This document shows positions 12,463-62,317 of a stretch of DNA of 64,000 bases, piece after piece. The stretch's first letter is position 1; each line of letters begins with the position of its first letter. This DNA comes from Siphonodentalium dalli. Taxonomy: Eukaryota; Mollusca; Scaphopoda; Gadilida; Siphonodentaliidae. The position numbers were made by a program, and so were the translations under genes. The notes beneath the pieces were generated by a model. That model was given only the letters and a program-made list of their open reading frames with translations, ran no database searches and was not told the DNA's origin. The stretch spans positions 205,021,934-205,085,933 of the forward strand of contig CP136063.1 of assembly GCA_032622095.1 (NCBI GenBank). The letters are read 5' to 3'.

Positions 12463-12862
12463 TTAACCCTTTACCCAACAAACCGGCCAAAACCGGCCAA
12501 ATAAAGCTTCAACAGCCTAAAATATCTTCGGTCTGTCTCAATAGAACCATACAAATATGGATATCATTGGAACCGGCTCCTTGACCACATTGTGATAGTT
12601 ACAGTTATACCCTGTGCCAATGCATTCTCTTATATATGCGAGTCGACCATAGGTCGCCTCGCATATATAAGAGAATGCATTGGCCTAAAAAAATAATTGT
12701 TTTAACACTTTTTACCATTTTTTCTTACATTCTTTAACAATTTTATAATTGTTAATGTGTTAAGCCAATGCATTCTCTTATATATGCGAGGCGACCTATG
12801 GTCGACTCGCATATATAAGAGAATGCATTGGCACAGGGCCCTTCTGTTGGGTAAAGGGTTAA
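12463..12862 (+). mobile_element. Double-palindrome TTAA MITE, subfamily A
   Basis: It is bounded by TTAACCCTTTACCCAACA (12463) and TGTTGGGTAAAGGGTTAA (to 12862), a perfect 18-bp inverted pair that includes the TTAA site. A unique arm with CTAAAATATCTTCGGTCTG lies on the left only. Two palindromes follow (about 12617-12686 and 12767-12833), each containing TGCATTCTCTTATATATGCG and its complement, with an AT-rich spacer between. TTAA targets with CCC..GGG ends are what piggyBac-type transposons leave; that assignment is inferred from the ends only. Confidence 0.8.
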
Positions 12863-52036: not shown

Positions 52037-52491
52037 TTAACCCTTTACCCAACAGAACGACCCTGTGCCAATGCATTCTCTTATATATGCGAGTCGACCG
52101 TAGGTCGCCTCGCATATATAAGAGAATGCATTGGCTTAACACATATTAAAAATGATAAAATTGTCAAAGAATGTAGAAAAATATTATAAAAATTGTTAAA
52201 AAATGTAAGAAAAAATTATAAAATTGTTAAAGAATGTAAGAAAAAATGGTAAAAAGTGTTAAAAAAATAATTTATTTAGGCCAATGCATTCTCTTATATA
52301 TGCGAGGCGACCTATGATCGACTCGCATATATAAGAGAATGCATTGGCACAGGGCATAACTGTAACCATCACAATGTGGTCAATGCACCGGTTCCAATGA
52401 TATCCATATTTGTATGGTGTTATTGAGACAGACTGAAGATATTTTAGGCTGTTGAAGCTTTATTTGGGCGTTTTGTTGGGTAAAGGGTTAA
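52037..52491 (-). mobile_element. Double-palindrome TTAA MITE, subfamily A
   Basis: TTAACCCTTTACCCAACA and TGTTGGGTAAAGGGTTAA ends. The unique arm (CAGACTGAAGATATTTTAGG) is on the right, so it is inverted relative to 12463-12862. Both palindromes are intact (about 52067-52134 and 52280-52348). The spacer has several AAAATTGTTAAAGAATGTAAG phrases. Confidence 0.8.
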
Positions 52492-53987
52492 GCTGCTTTC
52501 TCAGACCTGCGTTATATAAGATGCCCTCACAGACCTGCGTTATATAAGATGCCCTCACAGACCTGCGTTATATAAGATGCCCTCACAGACCTGCGTTATA
52601 TAAGATGCCCTCACAGACCTGCGTTATATAAGATGCCCTCACAGACCTGCGTTATATAAGATGCCCTCACAGACCTGCGTTATATAAGATGCCCTCACAG
52701 ACCTGCGTTATATAAGATGCCCTCACAGATCTGCATTATATAAGATGCCCTCACAGACCTGCGTTATATAAGATGCCCTCACAGACCTGCGTTATATAAG
52801 ATGCCCTCACAGACCTGCGTTATATAAGATGCCCTCACAGACCTGCGTTATATAAGATGCCCTCACAGACCTGCGTTATATAAGATGCCCTCACAGACCT
52901 GCGTTATATAAGATGCCCTCACAGACCTGCGTTATATAAGATGCCCTCACAGACCTGCGTTATATAAGATGTCCTCACAGACCTGCGTTATATAAGATGC
53001 CCTCACATACCTGCGTTATATAAGATGCCCTCACAGACCTGCGTTATATAAGATGCCCTCACAGACTTGCGTTATATAAGATGCCCTCACAGACCTGCGT
53101 TATATAAGATGCCCTCACAGACCTGCGTTATATAAGATGCCCTCACAGACCTGCGTTATATAAGATGCCCTCACAGACCTGCGTTATATAAGATGCCCTC
53201 ACAGACCTGCGTTATATAAGATGCCCTCACATACCTGCGTTATATAAGATGCCCTCACAGACCTGCGTTATATAAGATGCCCTCACAGACCTGCGTTATA
53301 TAAGATGCCCTCACAGACCTGCGTTATATAAGATGCCCTCACAGACCTGCGTTATATAAGATGCCCTCACAGACCTGCGTTATATAAGATGCCCTCACAG
53401 ACCTGCGTTATATAAGATGCCCTCACAGACCTGCGTTATATAAGATGCCCTCACAGACCTGCGTTATATAAGATGCCCTCACAGACCTGCGTTATATAAG
53501 ATGCCCTCACAGACCTGCGTTATATAAGATGTCCTCACAGACCTGCGTTATATAAGATGCCCTCACATACCTGCGTTATATAAGATGCCCTCACAGACAT
53601 GCGTTATATAAGATGCCCTCACAGACTTGCGTTATATAAGATGCCCTCACAGACCTGCGTTATATAAGATGCCCTCACAGACCTGCGTTATATAAGATGC
53701 CCTCACAGACCTGCGTTATATGAGATGCCCTCACGAACCTGCTGCTGACGCATGTGGCTATCGGGTTATGTGCGCAACGTTTCCATTAAACCATACATAT
53801 ATCGCCGGGGTTGCGGCTGACACATTTAAATGCAACAGATTTCAAAACTTTTTGAATTCGGATGCGTTTAACTGCGTCAGCCGCAATCCGGCGATATAAT
53901 TACTAATGGTTTGAAACGTTGCGCCGAACACGATAACCGAATGCGTTGGTCGTATAATGCGTCAGCCGCAGGTCTGTGAAAGCAGCT
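52491..53987. mobile_element. MITE containing a satellite array, TTA TSD
   Basis: The left end AGCTGCTTTCTCAGACCTGC and the right end complement AGCTGCTTTCACAGACCTGC are inverted termini, flanked by TTA (52488-52490, shared with the TTAA of the adjoining MITE, and 53988-53990). Beyond the array the two arms pair again (GCTGACGCAT, GCGCAACGTTTC, AAACCAT, ATCGCCGG, GCGGCTGAC with complements, 53735-53980). The array therefore lies entirely inside the left arm. TTA suits the TWA target of PIF/Harbinger. Confidence 0.75.
52502..53734 (+). repeat. 28-bp satellite, about 44 units
   Basis: The unit runs from CAGACCTGCG through TTATATAAGA to TGCCCTCA with very few changes. Variant units mark an internal duplication: GATGTCCTC at 52971 and again at 53531, CACATACC at about 53005 and 53565, and GACTTGCG in each block. 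The offset is 560 bp, exactly 20 units. Every unit contains TTATATAA. There are no unique spacers, so it is not a CRISPR array. Confidence 0.95.
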
Positions 53988-54051
53988 TTACCGCCGAAAT
54001 TACCGGGCAAATGAAACAGGAAAATACTTGCAATCACACAGGGGCATGTCA

Positions 54052-57239: not shown

Positions 57240-57638
57240 TTAACCCTTTACCCAACAAACCGGCCAAAACCGCCCAAATAAAGCCTCAACAGCCTAAAAT
57301 ATCTTCGGTCTGTCTCAATAGAACCATACAAATATGGATATCATTGGAACCGGCTCCTTGACCACATTGTGATAGTTACAGTTATGCCCTGTGCCAATGC
57401 ATTCTCTTATATATGCGAGTCGACCATAGGTCGCCTCGCATATATAAGAGAATGCATTGGCCTAAACAAAATCTTTTTTAAACACTTTTTACCATTTGTT
57501 CTTACATTCTTTAACAATTTTATAATTTTAATGTGTTAAGCCAATGCATTCTCTTATATATGCGAGGCGACCTATGGTCGACTCGCATATATAAGAGAAT
57601 GCATTGGCACAGGGCCCTTCTGTTGGGTAAAGGGTTAA
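57240..57638 (+). mobile_element. Double-palindrome TTAA MITE, subfamily A
   Basis: Same ends, orientation and near-identical sequence as 12463-12862, bounded by TTAA at 57240 and 57635. Confidence 0.85.
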
Positions 57639-61467: not shown

Positions 61468-62317
61468 TTAACCCTTTACCCAACAAAGCGGCCAAAAACG
61501 CCCAAATAAAGCTTCAACAGCCTAAAATATCTTCGGTCTGTCTCAATAACACCATACAAATATGGATATCATTCGAACCGGTTCATTGACCACATTGTGA
61601 TGGTTACAGTTATGCCCTGTGCCAATGCATTCTCTTATATATGCGAGTCGACCATTGGTCGCCTCGCATATATAAGAGAATGCATTGGCCTAAAAAAAAA
61701 CTTTTTTTAACACTTTTTACCATTTTTTCTTACATTCTTTAACAATTTTATAATTTTTTCTTACATTTTTTATAATATTTTTCTACATTCTTTGACAATT
61801 TTATCATTTTTAATATGTGTTAAGCCAATGCATTCTCTTATATTATTTATTTATTTATATATTTATTGGGGTTTAACCCTTTCAGTGCCAGGGGCCGATC
61901 TCATCGGCCCTAATTTACGGTCTGTAAAATCGGCCCTTTTTTTTATAGATTTTTTTGGGTTGAATTTTTTTGGGGTATGCTTAAGCATGTTATAGCGAAT
62001 TTAAAAACAAACTGGATAAAACCTTAGGGGCATGTTTTAACTCAAAACTATACCAAGTATTCATAGTAATAATTTTGATGCCCATGAAAAACGTAAGATT
62101 CCCTGGCACTAAACCTACAAAATAAGTCTGGCACTGAAAGAGATAAAGAATATAAGAAAAAATTATTAAAATTGTAAAAAATTGTAAAAAATAATAACAA
62201 ATGATGAAAAATTGTTAGGCCAATGCATTCTCTTATATATGCGAGGCGACCTATGGTCGACTCGCATATATAAGAGAATGCATTGGCACAGGGCCGTTCT
62301 GTTGGGTAAAGGGTTAA
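61468..62317 (+). mobile_element. Double-palindrome TTAA MITE, subfamily A, with internal insertion
   Basis: TTAA ends and the unique arm are as in 12463-12862. The left palindrome (61620-61689) is intact. A truncated start of a second palindrome at about 61823-61843 is followed by inserted DNA (61844-62150), then more spacer and a complete right palindrome (62219-62287). The inserted part includes a separate TTAA-ended element. Confidence 0.75.
61873..62150. mobile_element. Nested TTAA-type element with another terminus
   Basis: TTAACCCTTTCAGTGCCAGG at the left and CTGGCACTGAAAGAGATAAAG at the right are inverted. The start contains the small palindrome GGGCCGATCTCATCGGCCC. It is non-coding. 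A right-hand TTAA is not clean. Confidence 0.5.

Follow-up and report, generated by a model that had tools for sequence, protein, structure and literature searches.

The 28-bp tandem array in the stretch of Siphonodentalium dalli DNA analysed here (64,000 nucleotides, hereafter the window) is likely to be a minisatellite private to its locus, which consists of stacked MITE tips and was amplified in place from a MITE end that carried two tips. The TRF score of the array was the highest in the window, with a period of 28 and 98% matches. The features of the locus are the following:

52502-53742, plus strand: 28-bp tandem array of 44.3 copies (TRF)
52491-52511, plus strand: outermost left tip, AGCTGCTTTCTCAGACCTGCG, with 1 mismatch to the family consensus tip (sequence comparison)
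53723-53987, no strand assigned: full-length, near-palindromic MITE, the last array unit serving as its left tip (profile match, BLAST family copies)
53967-53987, minus strand: right tip, intact and identical to the family consensus tip (sequence comparison)

Each unit is composed of a 7-bp spacer, TTATATA, followed by a 21-bp copy of the outermost MITE tip, AGATGCCCTCACAGACCTGCG. An exhaustive scan revealed the tip in 44/44 units, with 3 mismatches to the 21-bp consensus tip in 34 of them, 4 in eight, 5 in one and 6 in one. In an inverted-repeat search the unit paired with the right MITE tip over 22 bp at 86%. The right tip was found to read CACAGACCTGCGGCTGACGCAT on the minus strand, as a previous reading of the sequence alone (the sequence-only reading) had claimed. 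A profile made from 20 family copies matched the window at 53724-53987 over model positions 2-268. The last array unit is therefore the left tip of a full-length MITE, and the array represents extra tips stacked outside a complete element. Thus, the 44 units of 28 bp described in the sequence-only reading were recovered by TRF, whereas their placement within the left arm of the MITE was not, the profile putting all units but the last outside the element. The array does start at CAGACCTGCG; that it also ends at this point is an approximation, as the last copy reads CACGAACCTGCTGCTGACG.

The MITE in the window is decayed. It diverges by 11-12% from the family consensus (220/250 aligned bases identical, or 225/252 in the other orientation, with the element taken from 53725, two bases late), while the mean divergence among the array units is 1.7%. 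Because of this difference the array must be younger than the insertion or have been homogenised since, and to judge from the sequences the MITE probably inserted first, with amplification or homogenisation of the array following in place. The variants within the array are distributed in two corresponding blocks:

52950-53089, plus strand: units 17-21, with variants at units 17, 19 and 21 (unit table)
53510-53649, plus strand: units 37-41, a repeat of the variant block of units 17-21, with a private change in unit 40 (unit table)

The variants of units 17, 19 and 21 reappear in units 37, 39 and 41, displaced by 20 units or 560 bp (permutation p 0.003). A large block must hence have been copied at least once, at a late stage, which speaks for unequal exchange or for slippage of a block.

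The 28-bp unit was searched for in the genome (2.23 Gb, 9 contigs). A 54-bp dimer of the unit gave 43 matches at ≤3 mismatches and a 26-bp word of the unit plus the tip gave 44 at the same threshold; all of them (43/43 and 44/44) were inside this array, and both reversed controls gave 0. At ≤3 mismatches the unit was thus absent from MITE-free loci, and with the 26-bp word no other family copy was found that carries the same 28-bp two-tip seed. As the unit is confined to one locus at this threshold it has seeded no other arrays, contrary to the suggestion in the sequence-only reading that it could give rise to satellites elsewhere. MITE copies that never contain the satellite had been named there as an observation that would speak against such an origin, and for the exact 28-bp unit this is what was observed. 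A dispersed satellite family has its unit in arrays at several loci; here all matches belong to a single array, for which minisatellite is a better word than satellite.

The flanks of the locus are complicated by a neighbouring insertion, a MITE that we take to be piggyBac-like from its ends:

53988-53990, plus strand: right flank TTA, a putative 3-bp target-site duplication (TTA/TAA flanks in the family)
52488-52490: left partner TTA, within the TTAA of the neighbouring element (sequence)
52037-52491, no strand assigned: separate piggyBac-like MITE with TTAACCCTTTACCCAACA ends, abutting the outer tip (sequence, inverted-repeat search)

The TTAA at 52488-52491 is made up of the target TTA and the first A of the tip. 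TTAA is the target of piggyBac, and the neighbouring element appears to have inserted exactly at the TTAA so formed. If the abutting MITE is read across, the window MITE would have TTA on both sides; when scored from the inner tip its flanks are unequal (ATA vs TTA). When the two flanks were joined (119 bases) and compared with the genome, only the flanks themselves were retrieved and no empty site, so that the TTA target duplication depends on reading across the neighbouring insertion.

The family to which the window MITE belongs has a consensus of about 268 bp, the arms of which match in inverted orientation at 130/132 aligned positions. Identity to this consensus is 88-95% among the 20 copies from which it was derived. 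At least 82 BLAST matches were obtained (40 scored of 654 candidates), and among the matches listed the best-scoring one besides the window copy was 82% identical to the query (260 positions) from position 12 to position 258. The tip word, with ≤1 mismatch, had 275+267 matches in the genome and 0 in the reversed control. The element is thus short, bounded by terminal inverted repeats and present in many copies, as is expected of a MITE. At the tip boundary the 3-bp flanks were identical in 17/40 pairs (redundant loci included), compared with 0-5/40 at the other offsets and lengths tried. The exhaustive scan covered 59 non-redundant loci and yielded 32 tip-to-tip pairs, of which 13 had identical 3-bp flanks; both flanks were TTA or TAA in 20/32, seven of these pairs being unequal. 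A target-site duplication is therefore weakly indicated for the family, with only a minority of the pairs agreeing. PIF/Harbinger elements have a TWA target duplication. Family tips (≤6 mismatches) were absent from 12 loci of about 3.5 kb each, cut from at least 150 matches to PF13359 (DDE_Tnp_4); 150 of 910 candidates had been scored, and 12 of these 150 were scanned for the tips of an autonomous partner. A 135-bp version of the MITE with the constant flank ACAGTTGA was encountered at 31 of the loci L056-L115 (L056-L060, L062, L063 and 24 more). These copies are apparently passengers of a larger dispersed repeat.

Stacked tips were also present in other copies of the family. Tips in the same direction and 15-130 bp apart occurred at 4 of 68 sampled loci when ≤5 mismatches were allowed (L018, L024, L079 and L105), and same-direction runs at six when ≤6 were allowed (L030 and L084 only at 6). 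The sample comprised 39 loci from the BLAST list and 29 found by the exact tip word. The latter were left from 60 after removal of the 31 passenger loci, the 60 having been taken in order from the 100 listed of 542 matches, minus loci fetched earlier. As regular-expression scans can miss tips, the counts given are those of the exhaustive scan wherever the two differ. Among loci selected for stacked words the exhaustive scan found runs in 10/10 of L040-L049 and in 16/20 of L128-L147 (the former selected from the matches of the two repeated-word patterns described below, the latter from 75 matches); being hand-picked, these loci demonstrate the existence of such runs and not their frequency. Three tips 56 bp apart were seen in L129, and runs of two and four tips in both L130 and L044, the run of four in L044 being at the right end. 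A large stack outside the window lies at L040:660-1242, where 15 tips are spaced mostly 37 bp apart. About 1.06 kb past this stack two further tips were found (L149:703-1049), the second of which opens a match to model positions 3-268. L040 and L149 together (~17 tips) look like another large stack of tips that lies outside a complete MITE and was interrupted by DNA that came in later. L040 had been considered as a tip array without a MITE, and was rejected as such in view of the two additional tips and the full-length MITE about 1 kb further on. Intermediate repeat numbers, which the sequence-only reading had proposed to look for at other loci, thus exist, as relatives with 2, 3, 4 and ~17 stacked tips, the last with 37-bp units. 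A few runs end inwardly in a 'tip' that is really an inner module of the MITE (with TGGTGC as its head in L046 and L140, and TGGCAC in L135). Inverted arms with variable tandem repeats, as in foldback elements, were present in L044, L129, L130, L134, L079 and others, a minority of the family; the stacking affects one end of the copy or both. Inside the stacked-tip MITE of L130 an array of 27-bp units (576-715, 5.2 copies) resembles an inner arm segment.

The outer and inner tips of the stacked runs differ in their surroundings. TTA or TAA flanked 24 of 34 outer tips and 2 of 47 inner tips (L018, L040 and L049 excluded). In most inner tips ATCTGC is preceded by TCT or by some other short word of subterminal sequence, TCT-ATCTGC being typical; in L128-L147 this TCT context is partly imposed by the search word, a bias of which the outer flanks are free. 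Runs on both strands were present at seven loci; their outer flanks agreed as a target duplication in L079, L134 and L136 and disagreed in L042, L044, L130 and L144. With TTA or TAA usually next to the outer tips and rarely next to the inner ones, this hand-chosen sample suggests inheritance of the stacked ends, with transposition by way of the outer tip.

From these observations the following course of events is proposed. The window MITE would have had, or gained, a two-tip end in which CACAGACCTGCG was repeated 28 bp apart. Two tips in direct order place CACAGACCTGCG twice within tens of bases, so that slippage or unequal exchange can multiply the interval; slippage in replication, or unequal exchange, between these direct repeats would then have multiplied the 28-bp segment in place, and at least one late step would have duplicated a block of about 20 units. 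The 28-bp seed is one that we infer and did not observe, because in the other stacked-tip copies the junction is TCT, unlike the array spacer TTATATA, and because no other copy with the seed was found. That amplification started from the terminus, as held by the sequence-only reading, agrees with the tip-built unit; its view of the unit as an inner piece of the arm does not, the unit being the whole outermost tip plus a spacer.

The array requires no function. In principle the additional tips might serve as binding sites for transposase, although the element has decayed. It might further be supposed that the family possesses a heritable stacked-tip design and transposes by the outer tip, with copies that repeatedly run away into private minisatellites and with the window array, through its 44 extra tips, acting as a local transposase sink. 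At each stacking step the end recognised by the transposase would then be left behind in direct repeats. We regard this wider interpretation as unlikely.

Equally improbable in our view, though a reasonable alternative for the origin of the spacer, is a tandem duplication over the transposon boundary. TTATATA would on this view be a remnant of the former flank, duplicated in one block with the tip, as by polymerase slippage at a short shared word. Events of this type have left their mark elsewhere in the family: L049 contains 2.1 copies of a 45-bp unit (20 bp of tip and 25 bp of flank) with 100% matches and GCAGG at both unit ends, and L018 contains 2.0 copies of 91 bp of tip and flank at 97%. 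In the window, however, the flank beyond the outermost tip is GGTTTA when the neighbouring insertion is discounted, and not TTATATA. Besides, the outer tip and the array-unit tip differ at 4/21 positions, so that the former is no copy of the latter.

An expansion inside the arm, with an inner segment of the terminal inverted repeat as the unit, was the view taken in the sequence-only reading. The position of the array between the outer tip and the MITE body is what it would predict. Nevertheless, it must be considered very unlikely, as the profile lets the full-length element begin in the last array unit and the outer half of the tip is present in every unit (AAGATGCCCT vs AAGCTGCTTT, 7/10 identical outside the 12-bp core, P ~0.0035 at fixed alignment).

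Least credible of all is a chance encounter of the MITE with an unrelated minisatellite, the two having only the 12-bp core in common: minisatellites are indeed plentiful (TRF arrays of period ≥14 occupy 5.7% of the window, including 1.9% from the 28-bp array), and arrays elsewhere share just a short word with the tip, but parts of one MITE flank the array on both sides, in register, and the homology reaches the end of the tip.

Tandem arrays are frequent in the S. dalli genome. At the 59 non-redundant loci, with nine near-duplicate loci excluded from the overlap counts, 4 of 102 tips fell in TRF arrays and 2.4 were expected from random shifts (p ~0.2). As this overlap is not above background, a role of the tips as hot spots is unsupported. 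Repetition of a 9-10 bp tip word retrieved the arrays L050-L054. They were rejected as tip-derived, the profile giving E ≥6.3 for L050 and nothing at E ≤10 for the other four. The first repeated-word pattern had 72+6 matches and was outnumbered by its reversed control (128+15); the second had 34+9 against 2 in the control. Two of the retrieved arrays, L051:218-2828 (42 bp x 62) and L050:594-1543 (32 bp x 31), are large minisatellites that share a word of 11-13 bases with the tip.

Repeats that have grown from transposon ends have already been published for other animals, and the literature was compared on this general subject. Tetris/TIR-220 is a foldback element with tandem repeats in its TIRs, proposed to stem from a duplicated part of the outer TIR domain, and long arrays have grown from these TIR repeats, partly without the element (610 repeats on 69 contigs). 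Its units are ~220 bp long, whereas those of S. dalli are 28 bp and occupy one locus; common to both are repeats that derive from the terminus of an element. In Galileo of Drosophila mojavensis the number of direct tandem repeats in the TIRs differs between copies and between ends, and secondary transposase-binding sites have been proposed (PMC3573991). Galileo belongs to the P-element superfamily and has repeats of ~210 bp, two or three copies of which lie inside a long TIR, unlike the S. dalli array. The Xstir satellite of a Xenopus MITE (Hikosaka and Kawahara 2004) is tabulated in a review as TIR-derived, and by this table entry it resembles the S. dalli array in its MITE-TIR source (PMC9659126). 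The coral CMITEs, related to piggyBac, form tandem arrays of MITE sequence; the repeated unit is the whole MITE, in contrast to the tip plus spacer of S. dalli (PMC2872659). In the S. dalli genome one transposon end is available in 1, 2, 3, 4, ~17 and 45 tandem copies, which allows the stages that lead to a minisatellite to be compared side by side. An array may thus arise from a transposon end without spreading, as is illustrated by the present unit, for which no second locus turned up.

The piggyBac-like MITE that abuts the outer tip is one of four copies in the window with exact TTAACCCTTTACCCAACA at both ends (12463-12862, 52037-52491, 57240-57638 and 61468-62317). The copy at 52037 contains nested palindromes.
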